Source: Erythroxylum novogranatense (lineage: Eukaryota; Streptophyta; Magnoliopsida; Malpighiales; Erythroxylaceae). From it: a stretch of DNA of 64,000 bases. Below the pieces are notes generated by a model, which saw only the letters and a list, made by a program, of their open reading frames with translations, did no database searches and was not told the DNA's origin. The stretch spans positions 49,430,063-49,494,062 of the forward strand of contig CM057233.1 of assembly GCA_029891385.1 (NCBI GenBank), given 5' to 3'. The position numbers were made by a program, and so were the translations under genes. Shown in pieces: positions 19,362 to 63,495 of the stretch. The stretch's first letter is position 1, and the number at the start of each line of letters is the position of its first letter.

Positions 19362-19520
19362 GTCCGTTAAACGGACACGTTCGGGTGGATGGGTACCAAA
19401 TGGTTCGCAAATGTCCGTTAAACGGATATGCAAGTCCATATAAAGGACATGGACAGGTGAAGAGGTGTTTTGGCACCTGAGGCTGTCCGTTTAATGGACA
19501 TTCATGTCCGTTTAACGGAC
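19362..19520 (-). repeat. Paired inverted-repeat word array in LTR J
   Basis: Five 15-bp words of the type GTCCGTTTAACGGAC start at 19362, 19413, 19434, 19485 and 19506. Words 19413/19434 and 19485/19506 form pairs 21 bp apart, and pairs recur every 72 bp; 19362 is the second word of a third pair whose first word is gone. The 15-mer is an inverted repeat with an asymmetric TTTAA/TTAAA core. Confidence 0.85.
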
Positions 19521-21598
19521 ACGTCATTTTCCAGAACTTCCAACCTCTCATCCTTAAAACCACTTGAGACTACCACCTTTCTAAACACATAACTTCTTAT
19601 TCCTAGCTCCAATATGTGCATACTATACCTTCATGGAAAGATAACAAGATAAACTACAAATCTCAAGGAGGATGCTAAAGCTAATTTCATCATTAATCAA
19701 GGCAAAAAGTCACTCAAAGGACACTGCTCATTAAAGACCAATGTAACAGTAGATGAACAGTAACTGAATGTGTTCTTCACCTCATAAATTTTTAAACCTA
19801 AGTCCAAATGAAGCAAATCATACACCCTTAGAAAGCTCTGAACTTCTACTACAATATTTATGAAGACTTCCTGATCTAAATCAAGCCCTAAGAGGGTCTA
19901 AAACTGAAGTGAAGTTCTGTCAAATTTTAGGAAAATTTGACAGCACTTCCCTTGAAAAATGCAACTAACCAATTTGCAATTCTAATGCTTCCACCTGCAT
20001 AAAACTGAACATGCAACCTCATATAACACAACTTAATCCCAAGTGTAACTCCAACTCAATTCAAGGCAACAACTAGACTCTTAACATTCTAATCATATCC
20101 AAGCTATACAATGATGCAATTGTTTCAAAACATACATGAATTGCTCAAAATACATTAGAACTGAATATTCTTGCTTTCATATGAAAAATATGAGTTATTA
20201 CAAAGCTTTAGAGGGAATTTTAAGCCACTACATCAAATCCAAAACATAATATTGCAAAAACATCATTTGCCCAAAATGCATCTAAAGCATTGATTTACAA
20301 AAGTTATCTTGAAAATACAAAATCAAAACACTAAGATCTTGGAGTATGCCTTGAGCTCATTCTTCGAGATCCCGATCTTCACCTGGAGATGGGACGGGAT
20401 TGGAGGGGGTGAGCTTTCGCTCTGCGGGTAACACATTTATATTTATATAACAAGCATGTCTATTTAGTTATTCATACATTAAGCAATCTTTCAATGAAAT
20501 CATAATACATGCATCATGCAATTTTCATCAATACATAAACATAATTTCTCACAATTCGAACATACATAATTCTTGCAATCTCCTGTAATCACATATGAAA
20601 CACATCAAATGGCTCGGTAAGTCCATATTCATGGCAACCATATAGTCTCATTTAATGAGCTTATATGGGCAAATCTTGAGGAGTCCAAATAATGGATCAT
20701 CCTATGCCACAATCGGGCAGGCGGGCGAAGCCTTTTCATGGTCGACGTGCACGTGACGGTTCTTAGGACTATACCTTACCCACATAACATAACAATCATG
20801 CATAACAATAAAATTGGACTGTTCTTTTCCAATTCACTGTTTTCTTGAAAATCTTATCTTTCATGCATATTTCATATTGTACATTTCATGCATAAGTCAT
20901 ATTGTGCATTCATACTCATTTAAGCTATTTCATTCAATACTAACTCAACCATCATCAAATCATCAACATGTATTATTTTCATTTACACATAACTCATGAT
21001 TAATGTCATCTAACCACAACTAACACAAGTATTTATAGCAATCATTTATACTCACTTACAAGTAACAAACATTCATTAGTGTCATTTATCAACTTGCATT
21101 AATTGCTCATAAATATAAAGATAAATATGGAACCCACCTTTAAGACTTGCTAAATCCTTGGTTTCCTTGCTACAACTCTTGTTCCTCTTCTCTTCCTTCT
21201 CTTTCTTCATTAAAAACCAAAAACCCATGTAAATCTCACTTCAATTGAGAAACCATGTTACACCTTTCATGAAATCAACTTGGAAATCAATATACCCATT
21301 CCATTCTTAGTCTTTCTAACCAAAAACCCAACTAAAGCTTAACCTTAAATCAAGAAGCTCACCTTGAATCTTTAGCTAACCAAGTGATTTCTTGGTTCAA
21401 AGTGTAGCTTGAACCTTCCTCCACACTTTTTCCTCTTGAACTTTCTTCAAAAACCCTCTAAATCTCATGGAGAATCAAACCCTAGCAAGAACTCTTCTTT
21501 TCTCCCTCTTTCTCCACCTTCCACGACATTTCTCTTCCTCTCCCTCTAAAATTTCGAAACTCCTCTTCTTTTTCCTACTAAATCACTTCTTTCATTCT

Positions 21599-21607
21599 CT
21601 TTTTATA
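21599..21607 (-). promoter_or_regulatory. Possible TATA box of LTR J
   Basis: Minus strand TATAAAAAG, about 340 bp from the LTR start, with a purine-rich stretch downstream. Confidence 0.4.
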
Positions 21608-23168: not shown

Positions 23169-25608
23169 TGTAACATCTCACTCCCGATGGGAAGGGTAGA
23201 ATGGTAATTTAGCAAAGGATTAAGAGAGTTTAGGATTTATTTTGCAATATTCATGCACACCTGATTCATGAATAGTGAAATTACACATGAAAATGACTGT
23301 ACATGCATTCATGACATTTCCCGGTATTTGCGCCTAAATGGGATTTTATTTTGGAAAATGTGGTTTATGGGCTTGAAAATTTAATTAAAGCGGATTGTTA
23401 TGTGTTTTATATTTTTGGGAAATTATAAGAATTTTTCTGGAGAAAAAAATCCGAACCGGAAAAATCGCCACGCGGTGAACCGATTGGTTTTCGGTGCTAG
23501 AAATTTTTGCCCAATGGAACTGGAATATTGGGTAAATGACATTGGGATTATAATTGGGACCATGGATTTAGAAATTACATGTATTAGGGTTCTTTATTTT
23601 AAAGTCACTATCAAGTTTTGTCTTTTTCTCTTATTTCATGCCAAGTGGCATGATGAGTCATCTTCACACATTTATTGCAAGCTTACCTTCACCTAGGGCT
23701 TCTTACATTCTCGACACTTCTAATTTTGAGAGGGAGAAAAAGTGTTTTTGGGAGATTTTCTTCTTCTCCTTCGTGGGTTCTCCTTCCTTGAATTCTCCAT
23801 TTGTTCTAGCCAAAATTGTTGCTCTTCACCATGCTTCTAAGAGCCTAACTTAGCTTCCCTTGCAAAGTAATGATAATGATTGTGTGGTGGAAAGAATTAG
23901 AGAGGATTGTGAGATTATGAAGTCTAGAAGAGTGGAAGCTTGCTTAAGGTAAATCATATGTTTTTATGATGGTTTTATAGTTACTTGTGATATTAGTTAA
24001 GGTTAATTGCATGGCTAAGTTGAATAAAAATGATGATTAACTTGAGTTGGGATGGTTTGAGATTACAAAGACAGATTCGTGGCTCCATTTTTTTAATTTT
24101 CTTTGAGCTGTTTAACATGCGAATCTAGAGAAACTCAAAACATAGAAATTGTAGATATAGAGGTCTACTATATCCATGAATATTTCCACGATTTTAGGGT
24201 GAGCCAAATGAGAGTGATAGGCCCCTAATTGAATTGGGTTCAGAACACCAGCGAGATTGAACGAAGACCTGAAAGTTAATTGTTTGAGGACCTTAGAGTT
24301 GGAATTAGATGATGAGTTCTTCTTACGTAATGTTCAAGAATGTGTCATTTAGGAACTGTAGAAAGGAAATTTTAATTGGATGAGGATTCTGCTAGCTATG
24401 TCCGAATAAGTGAAGGTTGTTCCTAACCTTAGTGATACATAAGAGAACAGAAACAGGTCAAGTGTGTAAAAATCACAATAAATACAATTTATATTATTTT
24501 TTAACCGGTTTTGGATATGTGATAGCCATATGAGTTTATGGAAAACTAAACTTTGAATCACCTTAATTGGATGTGAAATGAATGAGTTATAAGGTTTTGA
24601 GTTAGACAGGGTCCAACCTGTGACTGCATGTTAAAGCTGATTGTTAATGGAAGATTTGAATGCCCTTAATGACCGAATTAGACCATGGTTATAAAAGAAG
24701 AAATGTAAAGTTATGTGTTAATTAGAGGTCTGGAAAGTTTGAAAAACATTGTACCTATTTATGGGGATTTATGAATTGTTAACTATTGACTGGTTATGTG
24801 CATTTTGGTGAAACCTAGCCATAAGTGTAGGTTTTGTGAGTATTGTAATTGGAAGCAAATTTAGAGATTTCTGTGATTTGAATTGGCTCAAGTGATCTTT
24901 TGTAAAGTTGTATAGCAAGCAATTATCTTGAACATGAGATATACTATACTATTTTTGGATATCAGAATTGGGAGTTATGAATTTTCAAAGATTGGACTTA
25001 AGTTAGGTCATTGACTAGTGATCAGGACAGCCACTTGCATGACAGTTTTGAGTTTGTTAGAGGTGGAATTGACTGTTAAGCCCTTCATGAGAAGTGTATT
25101 ATTCTGTTTGATATTTTCATAGGTATAAAGTATGCAATCTTTTGACATTTGTACAAGAAGTTATGCTTTTTATAAAATTGTTGTTCAGTTCAGGTGGTTT
25201 TAGTGGGCAGAATCATTCATTGAATTGTTTGACCTACTTAGCAATTGAATTTGATTTCATGTTGTCATGAAAGTTGTAGGTCACATTATGATATTTCATT
25301 TGGCATAAATCTTGTAATTTTTAGCAAAGTTAATGAGAAGTTGTGGATTTTATAAAATGTAACACTGTTTTAACAAAATGTTGCACTATTTTGAGAGGCA
25401 TTGTGATGGCAGTAACTTTGAGTGTATTTTTGACACCCTTAGAAGTGAAATTAGTTTTTGTGTCCTTCAGGAAACTTGTAGAGCTCTCTTTTCTCTATAA
25501 AATAGATAAAAATTTTGTCCAATTTGAAGTTTGGAGTAGGGAGTTATGCCCTATGGAAGTTGGGATGTCGGAGGACGTTTATTCCAGATCTGCCATTGTA
25601 GTAGCATA

Positions 25609-25688
25609 AGTTGACTTGCATCCTTAGACAAGTCGTCTAGGACACACACAGTAGCATAAGTCGACTAGGATTCTCAGGCAAGTCGACT
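25609..25688 (+). repeat. Paired inverted-repeat word array in LTR E (5' copy)
   Basis: AGTTGACT 25609, AGTCGTCT 25631, AGTCGACT 25659 and AGTCGACT 25681. Steps are 22 bp within pairs and 50 bp between pairs. The 3' LTR has the same array at 33148-33227 with different mutated copies. Confidence 0.85.
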
Positions 25689-26083
25689 AGGATATATATT
25701 TTCCTTCTTTTGCTTATAACTTTTCCGTCCGATATCTGATTGACCTGATTTTTGAGGCATCAGATTCGTGAAATATTTAATTTCATTTTATGAGAAATTG
25801 TGAATTTTTGGACGGGAAATTGACGTGGGTCTGGGTATTGGTTCTTTGGTCACTGTTTTATTTATTTTTGGACCTATAGAGACCCGAATTGAGTAATTTC
25901 AGTGCCATTCGATTTCTAATTTTTAGATGGAATGTTTGTGATGGAAATTTTGGATTAAGGCCGGGAATATCATGAACATGCATTGTACACATTTTAAATC
26001 GCTACATATGCATTCGTAAATATTTCTGATTTGGAAAATAGGTAATGTTTATATACTATAACTGTTATAGAGGCATATTTAGA

Positions 26084-26153
26084 GCGTCGATCTACCGACG
26101 TTACTGAGACTTCCAGGTATTAGCTCGGAAGTACAGGTGAGTAACCTAGATGG
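26084..26153 (+). promoter_or_regulatory. Conserved LTR block: inverted repeat plus splice-donor-like motif
   Basis: CGTCGATCTACCGACG can pair at its ends. CTGAGACTTCC follows, then CAGGTGAGTAACCTAGATGG, which contains a consensus 5' splice site (CAG then GTGAGT). The same order occurs in D and, inverted, in C. Confidence 0.5.
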
Positions 26154-26415
26154 CTTTTTCAACTATTATATATCTAATGTGGGGAATAATGGTGGGATTA
26201 GTGATTGTGTTTGTTTATGACTGAGTTCCGGACACGGATGGTCCGATGAATTGGGAGATTTGACATAGAAGTGTCCTTTATGTGCTGATTGTCAAATTGC
26301 TTGCTATTACTGTGCTTCATCATTCGTTGCCTCATCGTGATGTATCGCTTTATACCGACCGTGATATATTGGGCATATTACATTTCATACACAAATACAT
26401 GAACGGATAATAATA

Positions 26416-26545
26416 GTTGTGATCGAGACGCCATCGACATCAAAAGAGCTCGAGCTCGAAGGAGATAGTCATACCCAAAGGGCTCTCCTACTCCCTAGAC
26501 GCGCTTCATCGCCTCTCGCTTATCGCTTAAGCACTCGGTCACAAC
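26416..26545 (+). ncRNA. 130-nt multi-hairpin block in LTR E (5' copy)
   Basis: Arms GTTGTGATCG (26416-26425) and CGGTCACAAC (26536-26545) can pair with one G-U. Between them lie small inverted repeats such as GAGCTCGAGCTC. Structure is inferred from complementarity; there is no evidence here of a separate transcript. Confidence 0.45.
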
Positions 26546-26710
26546 ACTGTAATAAAATGAGAAAGTGTCACATATGCATTACATACACATTTTGATTGAA
26601 TACAGTAAATGGGAAAAAGGCAAGAATGCATTATACAATTGTGATTTGCTTCTTCTGAACGTGTTATTGGATACACTCTGTAAATTGCTTGAGTGATGCA
26701 TGAATTAGGC

Positions 26711-26729
26711 GAACCATCGATGATGGTTC
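26711..26729 (+). repeat. Conserved hairpin GAACCATC/GATGGTTC in LTR E
   Basis: GAACCATCGATGATGGTTC, an 8-bp stem with a three-base loop, followed by an AACTCACCC phrase. Homologous hairpins occur in D and in both C LTRs. Confidence 0.7.
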
Positions 26730-27182
26730 CTCACTGAGTTCGCAAAACTCACCCAAAATTTGTAATTATGTTTCAGGCCTTGAAGAGTACTCCGTTAGAC
26801 ACGAGAGTATGCCTACTGCATGCCAGGGAAAGATAGGGGTTGGGATCAGTTCGCGTCTGCATTAGTGTCTCATAAAATTGTATTCCGCAATCTCTGGAAA
26901 AAATGCTTTGTATTTACTGTGGGCCCAATTTGGTTGCGGATTTGTGTACATTAAACGGCTACTTTAAATTATTATTGAATGTTTGTAATGACTGAAAATG
27001 TCTACAAATTAACATGGGCTCAAATTGTCTACTATTTTTTGCGCGTATGAATGTCCTTAAAAAAAAGTTGATACTGAGTTTTCGTCTAAGTGATGTAGCA
27101 CGCCACCCTCGTGGGGCACGGACTCGGATATCACCATCGATGTCAGGTTCGGGTCACGCGGGAGAGGGGTATTACATTTAGG

Positions 27183-30720: not shown

Positions 30721-33147
30721 TGTAATATCCCACCCCCGATGGGAAGGGTAGAATGGTAATTTGGCAAAGGATTAAGAGGGTTTAGGATTTATTTTGCAAT
30801 ATTCATGCACACCCGATTCATGAATAGTAAAATTGCACATGAAAATGACTGTACATGTATTCATGACATTTCTCGATATTTGTGCCTAAATGGGATTTTA
30901 TTTTGGAAAATGTGGTTTATGGGCTTGAAAATTTAATTGGAGTGGATTGTTATGTATTTTATATTTTTGAAAAATTTTAAGGATTTTTCTGTACTTTTCT
31001 GGAGAAAAAAATCCAGACCGGAAAAAATCGCCACGCGGAGGACCGATTGGTTTTCGGTACTGAAAATTTTTGCCCAATGGCACTGGAATATTGGGTAAAT
31101 GACGTTGGGATTATAATTGGGACCATGGATTTAGAAATTACATGTATTAGGGTTCTTTATTTTAAAGTCACTATCAAGTTTTGTCTTTTTCTCTTATTTC
31201 ATGCCAAGTGGCATGATGAGTCATCTTCACACATTTATTGCAAGCTTACCTTCACCTAAGGCTTCTTACATTCTCGACACTTCTAATTTTGAGAGGGAGA
31301 AAAAGTGTTTTTGGGAGATTTTCTTCTTCTCCTTCGTGGGTTCTCCTTCCTTGAATTCTCCATTTGTTCTAGCCAAAATTGTTGCTCTTCATCTTACTTC
31401 TAAGAGCCTAACTTAGCTTCCCTTGCAAAGTGATGATGATGATTGTGTGGTGGAAAGAATTAGAGAGTATTGTGAGATTGTGAAGTCTAGAAGAGTGGAA
31501 GCTTGCTTAAGGTAAATCATATGTTTTTATGATGGTTTTATAGTTACTTGTGATATTAGTTAAGGTTAATTGCATGGCTAAGTTGAATAAAAATGATGAT
31601 TAACTTCAGTTTGGATGGTTTGAGATTACAAAGACAGATTCATGGCTCCATTTGTTTATTTGTTTTGAGCTGTTTAACGTGCGAATCTAAAGAAACTCAA
31701 AACATAGAAGTTGTATATCTAGAGGTCTGCTATCTCCATGAATTTTTCCACGATTTTAGGGTGAGCCAAATGAGAGTAATAGGCCCCTAATTGAATCAGG
31801 TTCAGAACACCAGCGAGATTGAACTAAGACCTGAAAGTTAATTGTTTGAGGACCTTAAAGTTGGAATTGAATGATGAGCTCTTCTTACGAAATGTTCAAG
31901 AATGTGTCATTTAAGAGCTGTAGAGAGGAAATTTTAATTGGATGAGGATTCTGCTAGCTACGTACGAATAAGTGAAGGTTGTTCCTAACCTTAGTGATAC
32001 AGAAGAGAACAGAAACAGGTCAGGTTTGTAAAAATCACAATAAATACAATTTCTGTTATTTTCGAACAGGCTTTGGATATGTGATAACCATATGAGTTTA
32101 TGGAAAATGAAACTTTGAATCACCTTAATTGGATGTGAAATGAATGAGTTATAAGGTTTTGAGTCAGACAGGGTCCAACCTGTGACTGCATGTTAAAGCT
32201 GATTGTTAATGGAAGATTTGAATGCCCTTAATGACCGAATTAGACCATGGTTATAAAAGAAGAAATGTAAAGTTATGTGTTAATTAGAGGTCTGGAAAGT
32301 TTGAAAAACATTGTACCTATGTATAGGGAGTTAAAAATTGTTAACTATTGACTGGTTATGTGCATTTTGGTGAAACCTAGCCATAAGTGTAGGTTTTGTG
32401 AGTATTGTGATTGGAAGCAAATTTAGAGAATTCTGTGATTTGAATTGGCTCAATTAATCTTCTGGAAAGTTGTAGAGAAGGCAATTATCTTGAAAATGAG
32501 ATATACTATACTATTTTTGGATATCAGAATTGGGAGTTATGAATTTTCAAAGATTGGACTTAAGTTAGGTCATTGACTAATGATCAGGGCAGCCACTTGG
32601 ATGATAGTTTTGAGTTTGTTAAAGGTGGAATTGACTGTTAAGCCCTTCATGAGAAGTGTATTATTCTGTTTGATATTTTCATAGGTATAAAGTATGCAAT
32701 CTTTTGACATTTGTGCAAGAAGTTATGCTTTTTATAAAATTGTTGTTCGTTCTGTGGTTTCAGTAAGGTAATCATTCATTGAATTGTTTGACCTACTTAG
32801 CAATTGAATTTGATTTCATGTTGTTCATGAAAGTTGTAGGTCACATTCTGATATTTCATTTGGCATAAATCTCGTAATTTTTATCAAAGGGAATGAGAAG
32901 TTATGGATTTTATAAAATGTTGCACTGTTTTGAGAGGCATTGTGAAGGCAGTAACTTTGAGTGTATTTCTGACATCCTTAGAAGTGAAATTAGTTTTTGT
33001 GTCCTTCATGAAACTTGTAGAGCTCTCTTTTCTCTATAAAATAGATTGCAAGTTTGTCCAATTTGAAGTTTGGAGTAGGGAGTTATGGCCTGTAGAAGTT
33101 GGGATGTCGGATGACGTTTATTCCAGATCTGCCATTGTAGTAGCATA

Positions 33148-33227
33148 AGTCGACTTACATCCTCAGACAAGTCAACTAGGACATACACAATAGCATAAGT
33201 CGACTAGGATTCTCAGGAAAGTCGACT
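33148..33227 (+). repeat. Paired inverted-repeat word array in LTR E (3' copy)
   Basis: AGTCGACT at 33148, AGTCAACT at 33170, AGTCGACT at 33198 and 33220; same 22- and 50-bp steps as in the 5' LTR. Confidence 0.85.
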
Positions 33228-33953
33228 AGGATATATATTTTCCTTCTTTTGCTTATAACTTTTCCGTCCGACATCCGATTGACCTGATTTTTGAGGCATC
33301 GGATTCGTGAAATATTTAATTTCATTTTATGAGAAATTGGGAATTTTTGGACGGGAAATTGACGTGGATCCGGGTAATGGTTCTTTGGTCACTATTTTAT
33401 TTATTTTTGGACCTATAGAGGCCCGAATTGAGTAATTTCATAGCCATTCGATTTCTAATTTTTAGATGGAATGTTTGTGATGGAAATTTTGGATTAAGGC
33501 CGGGAATATCATGAACATGCATTGTACATATTTTAAATCGCTACATGTGCATTCGTAAATATTTCTGATTTGGACAATTGGTAATGTTTATATACTATAA
33601 CTGTTATAGAGGCACATTTGGAGCGTCGATCCACCGACGTTACTGAGACTTCCAGGTATTAGCTCGGAAATACAGGTGAGTAACCTAGATGATTTTTTCA
33701 ATTATTATATGTCTAATGTGGGGAATAATGGTGGGATTAGTGATTGTGTTTGTTTATGACTGGGTTGCCGACACGGATGGTCTGATGAATTTAGAGATTT
33801 GACATAGAAGTGTCCTTTATGTGCTGATTGTCAAATTGCTTGCTATTACTGTGCTTCATTGCGTTGCCTCTACTGTGACAGACTGTTTTATACTGACTAT
33901 GATATATTGGGCATATTACATTTCATACACAAATACATGAACGGATAATAATA

Positions 33954-34088
33954 GTTGTGACCAGAGACGCCACTGATACTGAAAAAGAGTCTCGAGCTCG
34001 AAGGGAGATAGTGCATACCAAGAGGACTCTCCTACTCCCTAGACGCGTCTACTACCTACTGTTTACTGTTTAAGAACTCGGTCACAAC
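33954..34088 (+). ncRNA. Multi-hairpin block in LTR E (3' copy)
   Basis: Arms GTTGTGACC (33954-33962) and GGTCACAAC (34080-34088) are perfectly complementary. The interior differs more from the 5' copy than its surroundings do. Confidence 0.45.
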
Positions 34089-34254
34089 ACTGTAATAAAA
34101 TGGGAAAATGTCACATATGCATTGTATACACATTTTGATTGAATACAGTAAATGGGAAAAAGGCAATAGTGCATTATACAATTGTGATTTGCTTCTTCTG
34201 AACGTGTTATTGGATACACTCTGTAAATTGCTTGAGTGATGCATGAATTGGGCA

Positions 34255-34271
34255 AACCATCGATGATGGTT
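34255..34271 (+). repeat. Conserved hairpin in LTR E (3' copy)
   Basis: AACCATCGATGATGGTT, same 7-bp stem as in the 5' LTR. Confidence 0.7.
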
Positions 34272-34722
34272 CCTCGCTGGGTTCGCAAAACTCACCCAAA
34301 ATTTGCAATTATTTTCAGGCCTTGAAGAGTACTCCGTTAGACACGAGAGTATGCCTACTGCATGCTAGGGAAAGATAGGGGTTGGGATCAATTCGCGTCT
34401 GCATTAGTGTCTCATAAAATTGTAATTCCGTAATCTTTGTACAAAAAATGCTTTGTATTTACTGTGGGCCCAATTTGGTTATGGATTTGTGTACATTAAA
34501 CGGCTACTTTAAATTATTATTGAATGTTTGTAATGACTGAAAATGTCTACAAATTAACGTGGGCTCAAATTGTCTACTGTTTTTCGCGTGTATGAATGTC
34601 CTTAAGAAGAAAGTTGATACTGAGTTTTCGTCTGAGTGATGTAGCACGCCACCCTCGCGGGGCACGGACTCGGATATCACCAGCGATGTCGGGTTCGGGT
34701 CACGCAGGAGAGGGGTATTATA

Positions 34723-34727
34723 ATTTA
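34723..34727. repeat. Target-site duplication of E, right
   Basis: ATTTA, identical to 23164-23168. Confidence 0.93.
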
Positions 34728-35640
34728 GGCTCTTAAACCCCTTTTTTTTTGCAGTAGTGGTTGACGAGCTCACCAAGAATGTCCATGGGGATGTGCCTTA
34801 GTGTATGTTGTTTTCTAATGACATTATCTTAGTGAATGAGACAAAAGAAGGTGTCAATGTTAAACTTAAACTTTAGAGAGATACGTTAAAGTTGAAGAGC
34901 TTTGAATTGACTAGGACTAAGATTAAGTATATAGAGTGTAACTTTTTAGGACATAAGGTGGCTACCTATATGAAGTTAAAGATTGGTTTAAAGTTATACC
35001 ACAAAAGGAGTGTTTTAAGTATGTAGGATCTATTTTCTAGAGCAATAAAAAGATTAATGAAGATTTAGTTCACCGTATTAGATCAAAGTGGCTTAAATGG
35101 AAAAATGCAACAAGAATTTTATGTGACAAGAAGATACCACTCAATATTAAAGGTAAATTTTATCATTTAATGATTAGGCCTTTGATCTATAGGGCAGAGT
35201 GTTGGCCTATTAAACAGTTGCATAGTTATAAGCTAATGGTGGTGGAGAAAAGGGTGCTCTATTGAATGTGCAACCTCACTAGAAGAGATAAGGTCAAGAA
35301 TGTAATGGTAAGAGACAGATTAAAGTTGGTTAATATTATTGGTAAAATTAAAAGAGATAAAGCTTAAGTGGTTTGGGATGTTAAGAGGAGACATCCAGAA
35401 GCTCCAGTGAGAAGATTGTACTTACAGACTATAAGAGAAAAAAGAGATACCTAAGAAGAATTTGGGGGAGGTGATCAAGTATGATATGGCTCTGCTGGAA
35501 CTTACCAAAAATATGGCCTATAATAGAACACTTTGGCATACTAAGATAAGGATAAAGGATCACATATAAAGAGATTCTTGTCATTCTTATAAGTCCTCTA
35601 GCATTTTCCTCTCATATTTAGCCTAATATTTCCATACTTA
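34728..35640 (+). pseudogene. RTE-type LINE, RT palm to 3' end (right part)
   Basis: RT continues after E: VVVDELTKNVHGDVP, then CMLFSNDIILVNE, where the FADD box has become FSND, so one catalytic aspartate is replaced. ECFKYVGSIF, VHRIRSKWLKWKNATRILCD and KFYHLMIRPLIYRAECW follow, then a KLVNIIGKIKRDKA-like end. Order and wording are those of plant RTE LINEs. An A/T-rich tail follows. Multiple stops; dead copy. Confidence 0.82.
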
Positions 35641-35888: not shown

Positions 35889-35897
35889 TGAGGGAGA

Positions 35898-40192: not shown

Positions 40193-40297
40193 ATCCGCCC
40201 AATGAACATACGTCCCTCCAAATGGACATGAACGAATCTGGGAGGCTAGAATTCCTGAGAATGCCCGCTCAGTGGACTTGAAGTCTACCTAACAGAC
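40193..40297 (-). repeat. Paired inverted-repeat word array in the 3' LTR of C
   Basis: Four decayed words of a GTCC...GGAC type end at 40207, 40227, 40277 and 40297 (for example GTCCCTCCAAATGGAC and GTCTACCTAACAGAC). The steps are 20 bp within pairs and 70 bp between pairs. Confidence 0.7.
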
Positions 40298-42184: not shown

Positions 42185-42200
42185 ATTCTCCACTCCTTAA
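42185..42200 (-). promoter_or_regulatory. Polypurine tract of C
   Basis: Minus strand TTAAGGAGTGGAGAAT directly before the 3' LTR, preceded by the usual TTTTGAGGACGAAAATTC. Confidence 0.8.
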
Positions 42201-43430
42201 GAATTTTCGTCCTCAAAATTCTTACCCGATTATTTGAACAGGTGGGATGTTGTATCCTCATGTGCTCCTTTGTTTCCCAAGTTGCTTTCTCAATCGAGTG
42301 ATTCTTCCAAAGGATTTTCACTAATGGAATTACTTTGTTTCTCAGCTACTTCGTTTGATATCCTATTATCTTGATCGGCTCCTCAACAGAACTCAGGTTA
42401 CTAGCTATTTCGATCTCCTGAGCTGATAACACATGCATTAGATCAGATCTGTATCTTCTGAGTATACTCATATGAAATACATTGTGTAATTGAGACATCT
42501 CATTCGGTAAAACTAACTTATATGCCAATGGTCCTATCCTCTCAATGATCTCATAAGGACTAATGTACCTAGGGCTCAACTTACCCTTTTGACTGAACAT
42601 CAGCACTGCTAAGGTGATACTCTCAAAAACATTTTATCTGCTACTCTTTATTCCATATCCCTTCGGTGCTGAGCCACATAACTCTTTTTTCTATCTTGGG
42701 CTACTTTAATATGACTACGGATGAGTTTCACTTTATCTATAGTATTTTGTATCAGTTATGGGTCTTCAACCATTCTCAGACCCTCTTCATCCTAATACAG
42801 AGATGAACGGCATTTTCTGTCACACAATGCCTTATACGATGCCATTCTGATACTACTGTAATAGTGGTTATTATATGCAAACTCAATTAAAGCTATATAC
42901 TGATCCTATGCTCCTTGAAACTCCAATACATATGCCCTAAGCATATCCTCAACAATCTTGATTGTCCTCACTATGTTCATCTGTTTGAGGATGAAATGCA
43001 GTACTGAAGTTTAACTTTGTACTCATAGCTGACTGTAAATTCTTCCAGAATCTTGAAGTAAATCTGGCATCCCTATTCGATACAATGGATACCGGAATCC
43101 CATGCAATCTAACTACCTCATTTGCATATTTCCGAGCCAACTGATCTAGTGAGTTATTCTCTCTCGCTAATAAGAAATGGGCCAACTTGGTCAATCAGTC
43201 CACCACAACCCATCTAACAATGTTTTGTCTCGAAGTCTTTGGCAATCTTATTATGAAATCTATGGTAATTTATTGCCATCTCCACTCCGGAATAGGTAGT
43301 GAAAGAAGCTTCCCAACCGAAGCTTAATGCTCAGCCTTAATTTTCTAGTAAGTTAAATACTTAGTAACATATTATGCTACTTGCTTCTTCATTCTTGGCC
43401 ACCAGAAATGCTACTTTATCTTATTATACA
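42201..43430 (-). pseudogene. pol: Integrase (core and C-terminus) of C
   Basis: Minus strand. Core near 43.2-42.95 kb: VVD..LTKLAHFLLA, SNRDARFTSRFWKNLQSA, FSTAFHPQTDEHSE; the usual SDRD is SNRD but the second Asp and the Glu remain. Then KSYVAQHRRDMEY and SPRYISPYEIIERIGPLAYK, the GPY/F domain, near 42.6-42.4 kb. VKILWKNHSIEKATWE near 42.3 kb is the end of a chromodomain-like module, which in chromoviruses steers insertion to heterochromatin. Several frameshifts. Confidence 0.85.
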
Positions 43431-45082: not shown

Positions 45083-45169
45083 ACACAGACCGTGTGATCC
45101 AACATGGGTAGTCTGGCAATTTTTCAGTGGAAGGAATACACGACCAGTGTGATTTTACACGGCCTGACA
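45083..45169 (-). repeat. Paired inverted-repeat word array in LTR F
   Basis: ACACAGACCGTGT (45083) and a decayed partner at 45102; ACACGACCAGTGT (45138) and ACACGGCCTGACA (45157). Steps are 19 bp within pairs and 55 bp between pairs. Confidence 0.7.
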
Positions 45170-50499: not shown

Positions 50500-51380
50500 T
50501 GCTATTTATGTTCTGGTATTTATTTGGGACTTTTAGTGGTGAAATTGGGTTAAGTGACCTTCTGGAAAGTTGTAAAGGATTTTTTTAGCTTTCTAATGAG
50601 GTATTTTGTGTGAATTTTGGATGTAAGGATTGTTAGACAAAAATTTGTAAAGTTTTGTTATGGTTTAGGTTAAATGCTGTTTTCTTGGACATCCACAGTA
50701 ATGGGAGATTTTAACCTAGTTAGAGATAGAATTGGGTGTTACGTTCTCTTGAGAATTGTAGTATATTGTCTGAGCTTTTTATTGCTATATGGTATGTAAT
50801 TTTTCGACAATGGGTTGGAAAGGTATGAATGTTGGAAGATTCTGTTACTGTGAGAATGAGACTTATATAGGCAGAAGCATTGCTTGAGCATTTGAGTTGT
50901 TTAGAGGTTGATTTTGCTTCCAAGTTATTCATGAAACTTGTAGAAAATGTTTTTATCTTTCTTTTGACATATATCTTGGAATTTTTGGCATAAGGAATGG
51001 AAATATAGGAATTTGTTTGTAGAGTGCAGTTACTGTTCATATGGTAGTTTTACTGTTTCATTGGGCAGAAACTTTGTTTGTATTTTTGACCCTCTTATAG
51101 ATTGAACTGGACTGGAGGGTCTTCTTGAAGATTGGAGAAAATGTTTAGAGCTTTCTAATGGTGTATAATGTACCTTATTTGGAGTTATGAGTAAAAAGTT
51201 ATGAGGATTGGAAGAACACGATTCTTCGCTCATATGGTCATTTATGGGCAGTAACTTTGAAGTGGTTTTTGGCACCCTTAGAGGTGAGATTGGTTTGTGA
51301 GCCCTTCATGGAACTTGTAGGGTTTCTTATTACCTTTCCAATGAGACCTTGTTTGTAAATTTTGGATAATTTTGTAAAGA
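50500..51380 (+). repeat. Degenerate modules inside LTR D
   Basis: The same phrase order (GTGAAATTGG, CCTTC.TG.AA.TTGTA, AGCTTTCTAATG, TTTTGGA, AGTTATG) recurs at about 50535, 50730, 51100 and 51285. It is an old, strongly diverged tandem array with units of about 130-200 bp; counterparts are present in E. Confidence 0.5.
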
Positions 51381-51898
51381 GTTATGCATGTTAGAAATTC
51401 AGATGGTGGAAGAGAGGGAAATAAGTGCAAACCCTCTTATCTTTTCTTTTATCCTAAAGTTTCTTTTGCTTATATCTTCGTCATCCGACCTTCGATTGAC
51501 CTGGTTCTCGAGGCGTCGAATTCATAAGACAATGATCTACCTCTCCATGTGGAATTGTGAACTTGTGGGATTTTAATTGAAATTTAGGGATTGAATCCAA
51601 GTGAGAAAATTAATTAACTTTTGGCAATATCCGGACCTATAGAGGTCCAAATTGAGTAATTCTGGTGTCTATGGGTTCCTGAGACATAGGAAAATATTTT
51701 GTGATGTGAATTATAGAATGGTACCGGGAATGTCATGAATATGCATTGTACACGTTTTAATTGTTCCATGTGCATTGTTTGATACTTCTGAACATACATT
51801 GAGTAATGTGTGATTATTTTGCTTGTTATAGAGGCACAGTTAGAACGTCATCCCACGGACGTTGCTGAGACTTCTCGACGTTAGCTTGGAAGCTATTT

Positions 51899-54543: not shown

Positions 54544-54548
54544 CCCAC

Positions 54549-54694: not shown

Positions 54695-57600
54695 TGTTGG
54701 ACCCCGTCTCCGAGGCCCAACATTCGGGAACCTAAAAACATAGAAGACCCAAAACCGACAACATACTGACCCCAATTTGGCTAACTCGCAAAAGGAAAAT
54801 CAGATCGGCTTCTTAAGAAAATTTATTCCTCATTTTCTAACGATTCTAACACCACTGAAAACGCTCAATTCGGATTAGAAATGAAAAAGTTATGGCCAAA
54901 AATACTATCTAAAGAAAAACAGTCAAAACTGAATACTCTACCGACTTCAAATCAGAAATATAAAATCTTAAAGGCTAAATTGTCAGTCGGTTCCTTCATA
55001 AAACTTGTAGATTTTTGTCTCTAGTTTAAACTAAAACAAGAATCGACCCGATCGGAGCTCCATAGCTCAAGATATTTCAAAATCATTGAAGTATATTCAG
55101 ACTTTAACGACCAACCATCACACTTTGTTTCAATCCACTTTTTATAATTTAAAAGCAATATTGACAAATCAGGTATAAAAATATAGAAAATTTTCTTAAG
55201 AATCTATCGCTTCAAAAATGAGGTCGATCGGAGGTGTGTGCAAAAAGTTATGGCCAAAAGAAGGAAGAAGGGTCATCGGCCGCCAGAACCGACCCCAAAC
55301 GCCTCTGCCCAAGCCCAATGGGCGATCGCCTCACACGCTTCATGGGCGGCGCCTCAGCCCGACCTATCAGACTTCTAACCTTAATATCTTTTAACTTCGA
55401 GCTCCAAATCAGACAAGGTTTGATTCATTAGAAAGCTAAGCGACAGCTCTACCATTTTTAAGAAGGACTCAAAGACAAGCGCGGCCACTAAGGAAATCAA
55501 AAGTTTACTTCAAGACAGATCGACTAGCTCCTCCTAAACAGTACCAGAACTTGCAAGTACCATAACTTTTGACCCTGAACTCCAAATTTTACAAACTTAG
55601 TGGCTATAGAAAGGTAAGAGAACGCCCTAAAACTTTCATGAAGACCAAAAGAACAAACTCCAAATCTATACAGGTCGCATATAGATTCAAAGTTTCTGCT
55701 AAAACAAATCCATCATTTTTGGCAGCACCTGCACTCCACTTTAACAACTCACCTCTTCCAATTTACACACCCTGAATATGGCTCATACTACATCATGGAA
55801 AGCTCTACAGATCACCTAGCACCCTCAAGGAGTCTAAATGATCCTATTCGACCTATAACAACTCAAAATTTGGCTGAATGCACAATATATCCAAAATTGA
55901 CCACATCAGCCTAGAATTTCAACAGCTCACAAACCTTAGCAAATTTACAATGAGCTCTCCCAAAGCAGAATTCCAACAATTAAAAGACTCACACACATAC
56001 CCTTTTCAAGATCCCACATACAGATCGCAATTCAACATAAACACATGAAGAAGAGAGTACTAGAGCTCTCATTCTCTTTTTAAACATAACAGAAGTTCAT
56101 ACACAGCTTTAGTTCCATATCAGCATGTTCATCATATCCATCCAGAATCAAGTACAAAATACAAAGTATGAGATGCTCAATGCTTGATATGCTTATAAAG
56201 CTATCCAAAAGCTAGTTACTAACTTAATACAAAAGTGTCTAAGATTTCTTGGAGTTATGCCCGATGCCTTGCAAGGTTCAGCAATCAACTTGAATTTGCA
56301 CCTGAGGAGGGAGAATGGGGTGAGCAAAACACGGCTCAGTGGCTAACACGTTTATAGCCATCGAGTAATGAGCCATACAACACATAGAGAATCCGAAACA
56401 TTAACAATCTATCATGTAAAATCCAAATAACTCAACTTCATCACATAAATCATAAATTAACCAAAATCATCACATAAGGCATAATATGGAATCTTCTATC
56501 AATTAAAGCACATATTATGCATCATAAACACCAAAATGATGAAATGCACACAATTGGCTCGAGAGTTCCTTAAACACAACGGTTTACACCGTAACACAAC
56601 GAGTCCGATTTCTCTGGATCTCGTGGCCCAAAGCGGGCAGCCGGGAGAAGGCTATGGGTCATCGTGCACGAGACTATCGAAACAGGTTCTCTCTTGCCCA
56701 ATCACAACCAATTTATGCTCACATATTCAAACACAAGAATAGCATTTTATGCTTCTTTCATTCTATCGAATCATCATAGTTTTATACTTTCCTTTCAAAT
56801 CACAAGAAATGCACTTTCATTATACACACAATTTAACAAAGATTGAACACATAGGGCATTTGCCCATTACACAACAACTATAAAAATGTTACCCACCTAA
56901 TATCGGAATCCGAATTCAAGATTGCCCTTCCTCCTTGTCTTGAGTGGGGTTTTCTTGATTTCCTTCAATTAAACCATACTCTATTCAATAAATACATTCT
57001 AAAAGAAAGGCATAGCATTCATAAAATCAAGCAAAGGTAAAATAAGCTTTAAACTTAACCTACCCATAAGTCATCTATGCTAGAATAACCAAAACCTTAG
57101 CTTAGAAGTCCCTAAAATCCATAGATCTTACCCTTCTCTTCTATCCTTCTTCAATCTCTACACAAACCCTAACTTGCATTATATCCCATACTTGAATCTA
57201 ACATAAACAAAGATGGAACTTACCTTCAACAAGTAGTTTCTCTTCTTTTTCCTCTTCTTTCTTCCTCCCTTCAAGCTTCCTACGACTCTTCCTTTTCTTC
57301 TTGGCCGAAACCCTCCTTGTCTCCTTGGCTCACGTTTTTTCTCTTCTCTTCTTTTCTTTTGGTTCACGACACTTTGCTTCCTCTCCTTAACTACTTAATT
57401 CATTTATTCTCATCTTTAAAGCCCTCTTCAAAACTACATAGTTTTGATACTCCTCTTAAAACTCACTTGCCACTTTGGGCTCTCCTCCTCACAAGCCTAC
57501 TACACAATAATCCACTTCTTTCTACTCCTCCTTCTTCTTATTCCATTTATTCCTAAAGCCCATTCCTCCAACACAATTCTAATCCTTCATTTTAACTTCA

Positions 57601-57751: not shown

Positions 57752-57756
57752 CTAAA
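57752..57756. repeat. Target-site duplication of B, right
   Basis: CTAAA, identical to 54690-54694. Confidence 0.95.
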
Positions 57757-59471
57757 ACCCAAATTCCTCATTTCATTTCTTAAACAATAGGTACATTATG
57801 GCTTTACAATAGCATTCATATGTATACATTATCACAAAATAATCAGAGTTTACATCTTTGTTTATAGAACATGCTACATACATGAGGGATTATTAAAAAA
57901 ATTTATCTAAATCCCTCAGTCCCAACTGATCAACAATTAAGCCATGTCTTCTATCGAAAATCAGTAGTAGTTCTCTTCTAAATTGACTTAGAAGCTATGT
58001 CGTCTCTCTCAAACCTGAAAAATCAATATGCAATTTTTGGTAATTTTTGTGCACTCCGTGAGTTAACCATCCTTGATGGTTCACTCATATCACATAACAC
58101 AACAATCTATACAATTATATAGTTCATATCATTTCAAGTATCATCATGTAGCATCACAAAACACCTTGTACACAATTTTCACAATTCTCATTCAACGTAA
58201 TTCAATAATACATTACAATCATTCAATTCGTGCATACATCAAGTGTATATATTAGTTGCATTGAAATCCATAAAACTCTACTCATTTGATTTATCAATAA
58301 TAAAAATATAACAAGACATATAACCCTCATTTTCTGGTTTACTAAATCCTTACTCCTTCCCCTTCCAAGTGTATTATTAAACACATCTCTTGCATATCTT
58401 ATCATTCCTACTTCAATTCCTCTTCATTGTCACCTCCATTTCAATTCAAAACATCCACAAAACACATCATACAAGATTGTTGATCATAACCCCATGAACA
58501 GAACATCAACCATGTCTATGTATTCTTCAATATTTCAGCACACATTTAACTCCATTGTCACGTTTCCTTTATTTATAAACTATCATCCTAATTCTCCTCA
58601 CTTTGAGACATTATAATATCCCGTTCTTTCTCTTTTAACTCACTCTACTTTATCTCTATTACAATTACTAACATTTACATTATTACACACCAAAACAAAA
58701 CAAATTCATATACACATTCATCTTCAATTTTCTACAAAAATTCCACTTCATTTTTCACCTTCATTTCACTCTTAACTATCACCTTAATTTATCTCATTTC
58801 AGAACACCATAGTACTCCTTTTTATTAGCTCTAAACTCATCTTTTTTCATCTATAAAACAATCAACTAAATTCACGTAATATACTAAGAAAACATAACAA
58901 AAATATCTAATTTACATGTCATGATTTATGCACTTCTTTTCACACCATTTTAATGATCTTCCAAGTTCAAACCCATCTTTATAACAACTTATGAAAGGTT
59001 AATCATCTTATATGCAAAAACAAGACATTTATATGCACATTTCATCCCTCATGATTCACATATATAATTTCATGATCAAGTCATCAACCTCAAATTAATC
59101 ATCATATTTGTTTCATTTAAGACTATCCATGATGATTAAAGTATAACTTACTTGATTTAGCTTCAAAATCTTCAAACTCTTCAAGAACACCAAGAAGCCC
59201 TAATTTCTCATACAACCCACGTATAACATTATAGAGGTTGGGAGGTTCAGGTTTTCTTGTGGAAAATGAAGAAGACAATAAGGTGAGAGTACCAAGTAAA
59301 ACATGAGAGAGCTAGGTTCAACTTGAATGGAGATTGGTGAGAAAATTTATGAAGGTGAAGAAGAAAGCCACAAAGAAGAAGAAGAAGAAAGCAAGATTCA
59401 AGACAATTTAATGGTCTTCCAAGTAATTAAGAGAATCATGGGATAAGGAAGTGGCTTGGCAAGTGACGCTT
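57757..59471 (-). repeat. 5' LTR of C, right piece (truncated and deleted)
   Basis: Continues the match to the 3' LTR from ACCCAAATTCC. It lacks the 1.28-kb segment present there (junction near 58242) and is cut by LTR H at about 59471, so the LTR start is missing. It carries a hairpin AACCATCCTTGATGGTT at 58065-58081. Confidence 0.88.
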
Positions 59472-59592: not shown

Positions 59593-61309
59593 AACAAGTT
59601 AGACCCTATTTTCAGAGCCCAACTATCCAGAATATCATAAGACATGAGTGTGCTTAGCCTATGTCTAGTTTATTTTGAAACAAGAATCAACTCATTAAGA
59701 GCTCTATAGCTCAAGATATGATCAAAAAAGCCAAAGCATGTTCATAACCAATTCATGCTCTTCCAACTCATTCTCTCACTTTCTTTCCATAAATCCTTTT
59801 CAAATCAACTAAAAAGGCTACCAATTTTTATGGAGAGATAGAGGAATGTGTTAGGAATCCAATGCTTTAAGAATCAAGTAATTTGCAGGTCGGCTGACAA
59901 ACCTCTAAAAGGGTAAAAATTGTAATTTAATGTAGTTGTCTCATGTATGTACATCCCATGTAGCTTTCCTAACTTATAATGATCATATCTCTCAACTCCG
60001 ATATCCAAAAATTTCATACTTTGTATCATTGGAAAGCTAGAAAGATAAACTATAACTTGCAAAAAGACAACTGTCTAATTCAACCTAGATCAATACAGTT
60101 TTTTCCCAGAAGTCAGAACACAAATTTTGACCCCTATAAAAGCTTGAAAATGCAATATACAAACTTTGAGAGTCATGAGAAAAAACACAATCATATTTCA
60201 TTATCATTAAAAGATAAGGGTTTTACAAAGCTTCAATGGGAATTTTGAGCCATAATACAACATGTCGTAAAATCCTAAAATACAAAGGGTACTTGAACAA
60301 ACAATACTTAAAATGCGAATAAAGCCTCATGTTTACAAAACCTAGCTTAAAATACAAAAATATGCCTAATCGAAGTGATGCCTTGACTCTCTTTCAGATG
60401 ATCTCTTGCTTATCACCTGAATATGGAAAGGAAAATGGAGGTGAGCTTAAAAGCTCGTGGGTAACAGTTTATAACAAAGAAATAAGCAAAACTTTGAAAA
60501 TATTCTTTTGTCATAGAAAATTCATATTGAATTCATAAAGCACATGTTTGTCAAATTCTCGTCATGTAATCCAATTCATAAGCAACATAATTTATGCATT
60601 CATCAACTTGTTCACAAAATCATATACACATAAGCTCATTAGAATGTTTTAGGTAGGTTCACAAATAGAACGTACTACACATTTCCACATAATGGTCCTC
60701 TGTAGCCATTAAAAAATCGTACTATCACAATCCCACATAATGGTCTTACGTAGCCCTAAACTTAGGGGAGCATGTGAGGGAGCTCCATGCCACTAGCGGG
60801 CAGGCGGGAGAAGACTCTAGTCGAAGTGCACTTGACATACAGAATGGACCACCATAAACCCACATAACATATAATTCATGGCATAAACATATTGCCCTAA
60901 ATGGCACATTTCGGAAACTTGTTTTTCATGAGCATAAAATATTTCAAAAACCATTTCCATGTCCATTTCACAATTCATCAACCAAATTCACATACCAAAC
61001 ATATGGAAATTTCTCAAATCATTCAAAAGCAATAAATGCAATATTTATGAAGCAATTGAAAACATTTTATTCTCTTGATTTAAAAGAAAAATTTAATGGC
61101 TCATTTAATCTATTATAAACATGTAACCCACCTTGAACTCCTTGCTTAAAAACTTGCTCAAAAATGCCTCTCCTTTTCCTCCCCTTGCCTCTCTTGATTC
61201 CTTTAACATTGACAAAATTCCCAATTTAATAGGGTTACAAATTGAAAAACCATAAAGTACATTCACTAAAATTAATTCAAGAATACTTAAACCAATGCAT
61301 TTCCTAAGC

Positions 61310-61314
61310 TTCAT
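61310..61314. repeat. Target-site duplication of G, left
   Basis: TTCAT, repeated at 63645-63649. Confidence 0.92.
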
Positions 61315-63495
61315 TGTTGGACCCCGAACCTTTTTATTAAATGAGAAATTGTTGGTGATTATTCATGTGTAGAAAAGAGGGGAACTCTTGAACTTGAAAT
61401 GAAATAGAAAAGATGGTTTAGACACAAGATGGGTTATATGTGATATGTTGGAAGTTAAAAGTTGGAAAATGTATATGTTCATTAAGTATGCTTCGGTGTT
61501 TTAGCTATAACTTTTGCTCTAGTTATCCGAATTAGATGATTCTTGATTTGGATTAAACTAGAGAGATAAGGCTACAAACCGTTTTGATGTGTTATGTGTT
61601 TATGACATGTGAATAAGTTGATGCATACATGTTTTGTGATTTGTAAATGTGACTACATGATGAGAATTTGAGAAACAAGTGTTTTATGGATTTCAACAAG
61701 GATTTTCTATGAAAATAAACTTTTTGAATGGTTTTGCTTATTTTTCCGTTATAAGCATGTTATCCACGAGCTGTAAAGCTCACCCCTACACTCTTTCCCC
61801 TATTCAGGTGATGAGCAAGGAATCAAGTGAAAGTGAATCAAGGCATGAATCTGAATTTGCATGTTTTGTTTTGTTTTGGAGTAATTGATGTAAAACAAAA
61901 CTATAATTATATTTTGAGCAATTGTCATTCAAGTTCCTTGTGTAATTTGGGGATTTTAGAATATAAATTGTATTGTGGCTTGAAATACCCTTAAAGTTTG
62001 TAAAACTCTTATTTTATGAGGTTAATGAAAAATGGATTTGTGGATGGACATGAAATGTGAATTTGTATATGGAAGACTATGTTGAATGTTGAGTATGAAT
62101 GGTTGGTATATATATGTATATATATATAAACATCAATGAGATGTTATGAATATAGAGATGTTGTTGAATATGAAGAGTCATACGAATTGAGGTTGAGTGT
62201 TGGATGAATTCCAATCAGAAGTTGAATTGTTTTGCATGATGTTGTAATTGAGGAAGTAAAGTTGGGATAAATTCCAAGTTTTGCATGAAGGTAAAATATG
62301 TATGTTGATTTCCAAGGGAAAACTGTATCGATTTAGGTAGAATTGATAAAACTTGTCTTTTTGGAAGTTTTAGTTCGTCTTTATAGTTTTCCAACGCTAT
62401 AAAGTTTGTAATTTTTGGACATCGGAATGAAAAGATATGATTGTTATAAGTTATGATGTTGCATAGAAATTGTGTATGATGACAACTATGGTAAATGATA
62501 GGAAATGGTGGTTTTAATGAACCAAATGAATTGGGATTTGAGAGTTTTATGAGATAATTTTGGAGTTTGAGTTGTTATGAAGTGATTTTGTACTAGAAGA
62601 GTTGAATTTAAGAATATATTGATTGAATATGATGTTAGATTGGATGTAGGAAGCATGGGAGAGGGTTTGGAGGGGTTTTGGGAACCCCATGTCTGTTTAA
62701 CGGACTTTAGGTCCGTTTAACGGACGTTTATGGGTCAAAAAGGACCCCTAGCATCACCCATGTCCATTTAACAGACTTGATGTCCGTTTAACGGACCTTC
62801 TTAGGTGAGAAGGTGCATTTTGGCCCGATAATGTCCGTTAAATGGACATGCATATCCGTTAAACGGACATTCACGGGTCAGCTTCATGAAATCGCAATTT
62901 TTGACCCATTTAGAGGAAGAATCTGACTTTATGGTCTCATGAAAGTTTTAGATCTAGAAGTCTAATTTCAAATGGTCTAAAAACGAAATCAATCAGACAT
63001 TTGCGGTGAAAGTTATGACAATCGTGCCAAGATATGTTACTGCATGATTGAGGTTATGAACATGTTAGATTCTCTCGGTCATAACTTCCTCGTCTGACCT
63101 CCAAATGAAGTGATTCTTGAAGCGATAGATTCCTAAGACATGAATTTATCTCTCCATGAAAATTGATATCTTTTAGTTTTGAGATGAAAAAGTTTGATTG
63201 TAAGAAAGTGAGAGGTCAGTTTAGAGAGCATGATTGAGGTATAAACACACTTTGAAATTTTAAGTATATCTTGAGTTATAGAGCTCCGATTGAGGTGATT
63301 CTTTCTTCAAAGCAAACAAGAGACTTAGATCTACAATTTTATGCAGAAGTCAAGATGTGATTTTGATTATTGGATAGTGTGGCCTCACCAACCTTATGAG
63401 ATGACGGCCAAAGAGGGTTCATTAGAATAACCCTATAGGTTTACAAGATCAAGGTTTATGACTCCAAATGTTGGGCTCCGAAAATGGGGTCAACA
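61315..63495 (+). repeat. LTR of G
   Basis: 2181 bp, shorter than related LTRs; its first part probably carries a deletion. CGAGCTGTAAAGCTCACCCC near 61769 is the counterpart of the stretch in F and H. The word array is at 62691-62868. Confidence 0.85.
62691..62868 (+). repeat. Paired inverted-repeat word array in LTR G
   Basis: Six 15-bp words of the GTCCGTTTAACGGAC type start at 62691, 62711, 62762, 62782, 62833 and 62854. They form three pairs with 20-21 bp inside a pair and 71 bp from pair to pair. Words 62711 and 62782 are exact. Confidence 0.9.

Follow-up and report, generated by a model that had tools for sequence, protein, structure and literature searches.

Introduction

Palindromic RM boxes have been described in 13 Sireviruses, where they are element-specific and CpG-rich, precede both the TATA box and ENV, and are called Sirevirus-specific (Bousios et al. 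2010; PMC2829016; this paper and those cited below are represented here by extracts of their text). Small RNAs are reported to be in excess at the palindrome clusters of maize Sireviruses (PMC10760457). In Del elements, the long terminal repeats (LTRs) contain a plastic 5' CpG island, which was proposed to be a moving target of silencing (Cruz et al. 2014; PMC4029996). Subfamilies of Tnt1, a Ty1/copia element, differ in a regulatory part of U3 and are otherwise conserved, and the extracts of that account mention neither palindromes nor tandem repeats (PMC1838419). The region between pol and the 3' LTR of Retand elements carries family-specific tandem repeats and mainly antisense accessory open reading frames (ORFs), many of them with a TRP28 domain (PMC11963269). 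A further system is that of the VANC targets of VANDAL elements (PMC5735166, PMC10398659). Here we describe arrays of paired palindromic words in retrotransposon LTRs, found in a 64-kb window of the Erythroxylum novogranatense genome (G000:C10:49430063-49494062; "the window" is this whole stretch of DNA) and searched for throughout the genome (1.30 Gb in 267 contigs). Among the papers listed in searches of the mainly open-access literature, viewed as titles and the openings of abstracts, we recognized no description of paired palindromes in the LTRs of Tekay or other chromoviruses.

Results

A palindromic word on a fixed lattice

A preliminary description of the window had reported short inverted-repeat words occurring in pairs, with a step of 19 to 22 bp inside a pair, in five LTRs (C, E, F, G, and J). 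The word positions and steps were recomputed, and the pairs were confirmed in all five, as were the periods at which they recur (50 bp in E, 55 bp in F, 70 bp in C, 71 bp in G, and 72 bp in J). Array G (62691-62868, plus strand) consists of six GTCCGTTWAACGGAC-type words starting at 62691, 62711, 62762, 62782, 62833, and 62854, with steps of 20/51/20/51/21 bp. Array J (19362-19520, with the minus strand as the sense strand) consists of five words of the same GTCC type, at 19362, 19413, 19434, 19485, and 19506, with steps of 51/21/51/21 bp. For each of these two arrays, 0 of 1000 shuffled sequences reached the observed palindrome density.

The GTCC word is abundant in the genome. Exact matches to GTCCGTTTAACGGAC numbered 6871 on the forward strand and 6960 on the reverse strand, compared with about 0.5 per strand expected by chance from the base composition of the window, and the reversed sequence used as a control gave 0 and 0. 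The 100 places listed form 45 clusters, 28 of which have at least two exact words, and 89 of the 95 distances of up to 200 bp among these places were within 1 bp of 21, 51, 72, 93, 123, 144, or 165 bp. Twenty fetched loci yielded 24 arrays of at least two words and one single word. Their 88 steps were 21 bp (48 steps), 20 bp (2), 51 bp (29), 50 bp (6), 71 bp (2), or 30 bp (1), so that 85 of 88 measured 20 to 21 or 50 to 51 bp. The common full form has three pairs, in the order word-21-word-51-word-21-word-51-word-21-word; ten six-word arrays span 178 to 180 bp, and one array holds eight words. Array J is on the same lattice as these copies and fits the common full form. In some arrays, single words are missing and the 51-bp steps are preserved, as expected if units were lost by exchange between words.

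Conservation, symmetry, and decay of the words

Within nine six-word arrays, the mean identity was 0.88 for the words, 0.69 for the 6-bp inner spacers, and 0.40 for the 36-bp outer spacers; in our judgment, an identity near 0.35 in such an alignment is about that of unrelated sequences. Between the nine arrays, identities were 0.82 to 0.96 for words, 0.34 to 0.82 for flanks, and 0.33 to 0.92 for spacers, the orientation of the array L048a relative to the others being assumed, and the words were more alike than the spacers in 35 of the 36 comparisons. When one exact copy per array was dropped, the remaining 97 words had on average 0.81 mismatches of 15, far below the divergence of the flanks.

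A profile was made from 39 nonredundant pairs (<85% identity over 150 bp) out of 51. Word positions carried 1.09 to 1.94 bits and most spacer positions less than 0.5 bit. Upstream of the pair lies an outer half-site, ACCCG, whose bases were kept in 22, 27, 29, 24, and 32 of the 39 pairs, and downstream lies a weaker mirror half-site, CGGGT (27, 18, 24, 18, and 18 of 39). The pair as a whole is dyad symmetric: the center bases were A,T in 32, T,T in 14, A,A in 9, and T,A in 0 of 55 pairs, which are related copies and not independent ones. Twenty-one base pairs make two helical turns. We read the 21-bp pair as a probable site at which two dimers cooperate from the same side of the helix. The DNA-binding factor suggested in the preliminary description, here taken as symmetric (dimeric), is supported by constrained, symmetric words paired about two turns apart and by a geometry that is tighter than the sequence between the words.

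The changes in the words were then counted. Among 123 words, 79 changes were found, 58 of which were C>T or G>A, mostly at CpG positions; on the sense strand, 28 were C>T and 30 were G>A. Since most of the changes are of this kind, the words have probably been methylated in many copies. The density of CpG per 100 bp was 10.8 in the words, a consequence of their make-up, 3.3 in the spacers, and 1.5 in the flanks. Nearly all of the changes (77 of 79) were one-sided, and the other 2 touched both sides without restoring pairing. The compensatory changes across each word that had been anticipated were therefore not found, with 0 complementary double changes. Transitions that preserve pairing did not exceed those that break it (39 versus 34; P = 0.64).

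These counts bear on a role of the words in RNA, as hairpins or kissing loops for dimerization or packaging or as fold-backs feeding small RNA silencing, the latter as proposed for maize Sirevirus palindromes. The small RNA excess at those clusters would fit such a role (PMC10760457), and so would the predicted folds of J and G, which were better than those of 200 out of 200 shuffled sequences (z = -5.2 and -5.4, respectively), and of E1, the array in the first LTR of element E, which was better than 196 out of 200 (z = -2.9). However, the folds of F, C, and L and of the homologous site in LTR K were unremarkable (z = -1.6, -1.1, -0.7, and -0.9, respectively), RNA stems have no evident use for an exact 51-bp step, and the one-sided changes are not those of a conserved stem. 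Judged by its mutations, the decay of the words resembles that of methylated DNA and not the evolution of an RNA stem, and we consider a role in RNA very unlikely. An estimate of indel rates by forced alignment (gap openings per 100, 1.53 in arrays versus 2.81 in flanks) was dropped as evidence because gaps within arrays of equal length are partly alignment artifacts.

One word and one lattice in two lineages

A Ty3 element adjoining LTR C in the window has an integrase C-terminal SH3_Tf2-1 domain (42349-42633, minus strand; Pfam E value of 1.3e-21). This domain is followed by a chromodomain-like stretch at 42082-42345 that was recognized only by eye; a Pfam scan of 42085-42345 gave no match. 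On the basis of these two features, the lineage of the window LTRs (C, E, F, G, J, K, and L) was taken as a Tekay/Del-like chromovirus, a name that we assume, as we assume that Del and Tekay are the same.

A second carrier was found among the fetched loci. L047 and L048b are two LTRs that are 94.7% identical and have a target duplication of 5 bp in common. By eye, this element also shows a purine tract and a TGGCACCGTTGCCGGGGA primer site, features whose significance we presume. Its integrase ORF matched only Integrase_H2C2 and rve in Pfam, without a chromodomain, and a PF20167 ORF lies behind it. With such an integrase and an extra 3' ORF, this element was taken as Athila-type, again a name that we assume. 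Both the SH3_Tf2-1 domain of the window and the H2C2-rve integrase of L048 were taken as being of the Ty3 type on the strength of their domain matches.

In total, 27 array places were compared by their flanks, 25 of them fetched (one a single word) and the other two being G and J of the window. At 80% flank identity they fell into 11 families, and at 60% into three groups that could not be aligned with one another, namely, 24 Tekay-like places, L047 with L048b, and L048a alone. The lattice recurs in all 11 families, some of them beyond alignment. In a single LTR family (L051, L052, and L057) there are two places with GTCC arrays about 1.9 kb apart, one of which holds a single word in L052; L051 additionally carries tandem repeats of 23 to 26 bp.

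If the arrays had no function, they could be ordinary tandem duplications of small units in a part of the LTR that evolves fast, with the spacing inherited within families. The array of element E indeed looks like a 50-bp tandem duplication, some arrays have 51/51 steps, as if words had been lost by exchange, and 24 of the 27 places lie in homologous Tekay-like LTRs. Yet inside single arrays the spacers are 0.26 to 0.56 identical, versus 0.83 to 0.96 for the words, and the lattice persists beyond the reach of flank alignment and in a second lineage. We therefore regard this explanation as improbable.

In the Athila-type element, the array in the L048 LTR has four GTCC words with steps of 21/50/21 bp, and the sequence TATAAAT starts 56 bp after it. 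A second array (L048:2477-2655) has six words, with steps of 21/50/21/51/21 bp, and is located between the integrase stop and the PF20167 ORF; a CT-rich leader-like stretch comes after it. The region L048:2477-4334, with the array, the leader-like stretch, and the PF20167 (Transposase_32) ORF behind the Athila-type integrase, is possibly a second transcription unit. One word and one lattice thus recur ahead of both the LTR TATA box and an accessory ORF, which suggests cis-regulatory arrays that bind protein.

The preliminary description had proposed a factor that co-evolves with each family. This proposal is weakened, because the GTCC word and its lattice are found in both Tekay-type and Athila-type elements. 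One word in two lineages suggests either a factor outside any single family or a transfer of the array together with the dependence on it. We tentatively propose that the array may be a transferable "key," one trans-acting factor serving several unrelated retrotransposon lineages with an array at every promoter, and that lineages may escape or change their master by swapping the word and keeping the two-turn geometry. This wider proposal is possible rather than probable.

The accessory ORF also raises the question of anti-silencing, in which a factor encoded by the element would bind the words and strip methylation, as VANC does for VANDAL; the Athila-type PF20167 ORF could encode such a factor, and Tekay elements could borrow it. 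The extra ORF downstream of one L048 array would suit this scheme, as would the CpG-rich make-up of the words and their occurrence as words that differ between related elements in repeated noncoding units, similarly to what is reported in the extracts of PMC5735166. However, no DUF1985 match was found in the 9 ORFs scanned (6 of the window's 102 listed ORFs and 3 of the 7 listed in L048), and none of 304 candidate homologues of the PF20167 ORF product reached an E value of ≤0.001 in a collection in which plants may be poorly represented. In addition, the predominance of C>T and G>A changes suggests that the words have been methylated in many copies, and the VANC motifs are not called palindromic in the extracts of PMC5735166. 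Anti-silencing of this type is thus unlikely.

Repeated words were also noted elsewhere in the window. At 2585-2720, TTCGTCATGACGAA and related words lie between a decayed integrase and an ORF starting near 2770, which recalls the placement of the L048 array. Direct repeats of about 22 bp (steps of 20 to 23 bp within and 31 to 32 bp between), with little symmetry, occur at 13203-13290 and 15870-15990 in copies that are 95% identical; the copy at 15870-15990 is just upstream of the gag ORF (16036-16689) of a nonchromovirus element.

Other arrays in the window and their words

Nested, decayed LTR retrotransposons fill much of the window. A self-comparison of the window indicated that LTRs C, E, F, G, and J, together with K, L, and H, are mutually homologous, with about 61 to 71% identity in the longer alignments. 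Element E has two LTRs, at 23169-27182 (plus strand; TGGTATCAGAGC comes after it) and at 30721-34729 (plus strand), which are 93% identical and enclose 3.5 kb. Array E1 (25608-25692, plus strand) has four AAGTCGACT-type words starting at 25608, 25630, 25658, and 25680, with steps of 22/28/22 bp and a repeated unit of 50 bp. Array E2 (33147-33231, plus strand) repeats it in the second LTR, with words at 33147, 33169, 33197, and 33219 and the same steps; since the two LTRs belong to one element, E1 and E2 are not independent arrays. Array F (45083-45168, minus strand) has ACAC(N5)GTGT words at 45083 and 45138, 55 bp apart, and a partial word 19 bp further, at 45157. Array C (40193-40297, minus strand) has four decayed GTCC...GGAC words with steps of 20/50/20 bp and appears to be a GTCC-type array that has decayed.

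Because the arrays are found at related LTR places, the same place was checked in the other LTRs, and a sixth array, missing from the preliminary description, was found in LTR L (55271-55355, minus strand). Of its four words, one is an exact GAGGCGATCGCC and the other three are degenerate, with 4, 4, and 5 mismatches of 12; the steps are 23/27/23 bp, and the period is 50 bp, as in E. At the homologous site of LTR K (51397-51461, plus strand), no array was recognized. At that of LTR H (59891-59925, minus strand), the array and about 0.4 kb of its flanks are gone, and the second copy of LTR C (C', 57752-59471) is without the 1.28 kb carrying array C, the site being at 58248-58249 (minus strand).

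These arrays differ in statistical strength. The palindrome density of E2 was reached by 46 of 1000 shuffles, that of C by 115, and that of L by 205; the score gave nothing for E1, F, and K. When the information in the repeated word was combined with its symmetry, G, J, E1, E2, and F took ranks 0 to 5 (5 for F) in a set of 639 windows cut from this sequence, which included some overlapping the arrays; C ranked 46 (16 for repeats and 311 for symmetry), L ranked 103, and K ranked 610. G and J exceed chance alone, and E and F exceed chance by the combined score. The repeated word has clear dyad symmetry in GTCC, fair symmetry in E and F, and weak symmetry in C and L. A symmetry above that of shuffled sequences thus held for G and J and was not convincing for C, E2, or L taken alone. 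The window holds three words (the GTCC type, E, and F) and a weak fourth (L). Families do differ in their word, as claimed, except that C, G, and J appear to be one word type on one lattice. The claim that spacing is kept while words change stood weakly: the step inside a pair remained at 19 to 23 bp, but the period varied (22/28 in E, 23/27 in L, and 19/36 in F, versus 21/51 in GTCC).

The arrays sit in or beside a nonaligning stretch of the LTR that has conserved flanks on either side. In E, L, and K, this stretch is directly before a common TTCTTTTGG-like module, and in C, F, G, and J, it is about 190 bp earlier relative to that module. The phrase said to follow the arrays of C, F, G, and J was found there, its 12-base core having 0 mismatches in C and F, 1 in J, and 2 in G. 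Since these LTRs are homologous, the shared position of the array and the phrase downstream are inherited, and the core has 36 matches in the window at ≤2 mismatches, these four included. Degenerate tandem modules of about 185 bp occur upstream of the array in LTRs (24939-25481 and 50533-51386), several with a AAAGTTGTAG-like phrase, and may explain the recurrence of the downstream phrase.

The E word was also found beyond the window, with 109 pairs on the forward strand and 129 on the reverse strand, compared with 0 in the control. Among 100 listed pairs, with steps of 18 to 25 bp allowed, 98 had a step of 22 bp, one had 21 bp, and one had 23 bp. In 27 of 30 fetched E loci there were four words spaced 22 or 21/28/22 bp, the exceptions being L067 and L086, with two words, and L094, with three. 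The spacing seen in the window was therefore recovered in other members of the genome for both the GTCC and the E words. The F word, searched as a ACACGGCCGTGT pair, had 0 genome matches, and the F family was seen in the window only; no F-like pair was found in the viral contigs. The GTCC word occurred in 15 stretches of the viral contigs, and in the two stretches inspected (L001 and L005) it was taken for coincidence. In L005, three GTCCGTTTAACGGAC words are found inside 70 bp (8572-8641), probably within a gene, and were taken as convergence. When the fetched loci and the window were scanned de novo for further word families, the top rows were mostly simple tandem repeats. A possible further word family is present at L068:2856-2960, where GC-rich inverted-repeat words, TCGCTAGGGC and GCCCTAGC, with steps near 22 and 26 bp, lie before the TTCTTTTGG module.

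Discussion

How retrotransposon promoters remain readable to the cell under the silencing that pursues them is a long-standing question. Our results establish the words, their lattice and conservation, their sharing by two lineages, and, in one element, their positions ahead of a TATA box and of an accessory ORF. The code is legible in the DNA: a 15-bp word is present in thousands of copies, nearly all the distances examined fall on a 21/51 lattice, and two distant Ty3 lineages carry both. We propose, with a probability of roughly 0.6, that in retrotransposon LTRs the arrays serve as cis-regulatory platforms for a symmetric factor. Each palindromic word would be a site for a symmetric, presumably dimeric, sequence-specific DNA-binding protein. 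Two such dimers, separated by about two turns, would occupy the same face of the DNA, and two or three of these pairs would follow one another at a fixed period. Most likely, this would constitute an upstream activating array recruiting a trans-acting factor, probably supplied by the host, to the promoters of the element, with an action resembling that of the palindromic RM boxes of Sireviruses. Families would diversify by a concerted change of the word, as units duplicate and contract, with the pair step staying near 20 bp.

Several points weigh against cis-regulatory platforms. All 20 fetched GTCC loci lie within 10.8 Mb of the start of a single contig; they were picked by one exact word, with further words accepted at a few mismatches, and the copies are related by descent, so the lattice counts are not independent events. 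In the close relatives L051b and L057a, the spacers are 0.92 identical, versus 0.90 for the words. Array-free copies persist, as H, C', and K have no array, and arrays L and C are statistically weak when taken alone (shuffles and window ranks). In the Tekay-type LTRs, no conserved TATA was found near the arrays; TATA positions were scattered, and the promoter could not be placed. A TATA box beside an array is present in the Athila-type LTR only, and the second lineage is represented by one element. The word together with the lattice forms an exact probe for finding the factor and a clean way to tell apart activation, protection, and the attraction of silencing.

Among known systems, the RM boxes of Sireviruses (PMC2829016) are similar in several respects. 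They too are element-specific, high-copy, CpG-rich palindromic words of LTRs, with similar words in distant elements whose flanks have diverged. RM boxes precede the TATA box and, in further copies, the 3' ENV ORF, as the arrays do in the single element L048, where one lies 56 bp before the TATA box and another before the 3' ORF. However, Sireviruses are Ty1/copia elements, whereas the present carriers are Ty3 elements of the Tekay and Athila types. RM boxes have a CGG-CCG core; the GTCC word reads CCG...CGG, and the E and L words have neither form. There are 8 to 32 RM boxes per element, compared with 2 to 8 words per array here, and the extracts of the RM-box account contain no fixed pair lattice such as the 21/51 lattice. 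The CpG island of Del (PMC4029996) is likewise a CpG-rich LTR stretch that varies in sequence and length, in the same lineage; it was defined by CpG and conservation plots, in extracts that use no tandem or palindrome terms, and is here resolved into words and a lattice. As in the VANC targets (PMC5735166), short motifs lie in noncoding tandem repeats and differ between related elements. The VANC motifs, which the extracts do not describe as palindromic, co-evolve with a known DNA-binding protein in DNA transposons, whereas the present words are palindromic and are known from the DNA alone. The U3 stretch of Tnt1 (PMC1838419) is also a variable regulatory stretch amid a conserved LTR, but in a Ty1/copia element. 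Retand (PMC11963269), a nonchromovirus Ty3 element, similarly has repeats and accessory ORFs before the 3' LTR; these are ordinary tandem repeats, with no paired palindrome lattice described in the extracts. The statement in the preliminary description that such arrays were undescribed is thus borne out for the lattice in chromovirus LTRs, with the RM boxes and the Del island as close precedents. Palindromic LTR boxes were already known, and what is new, so far as our literature search shows, is the lattice, its sharing across Ty3 lineages, and the switching of words.

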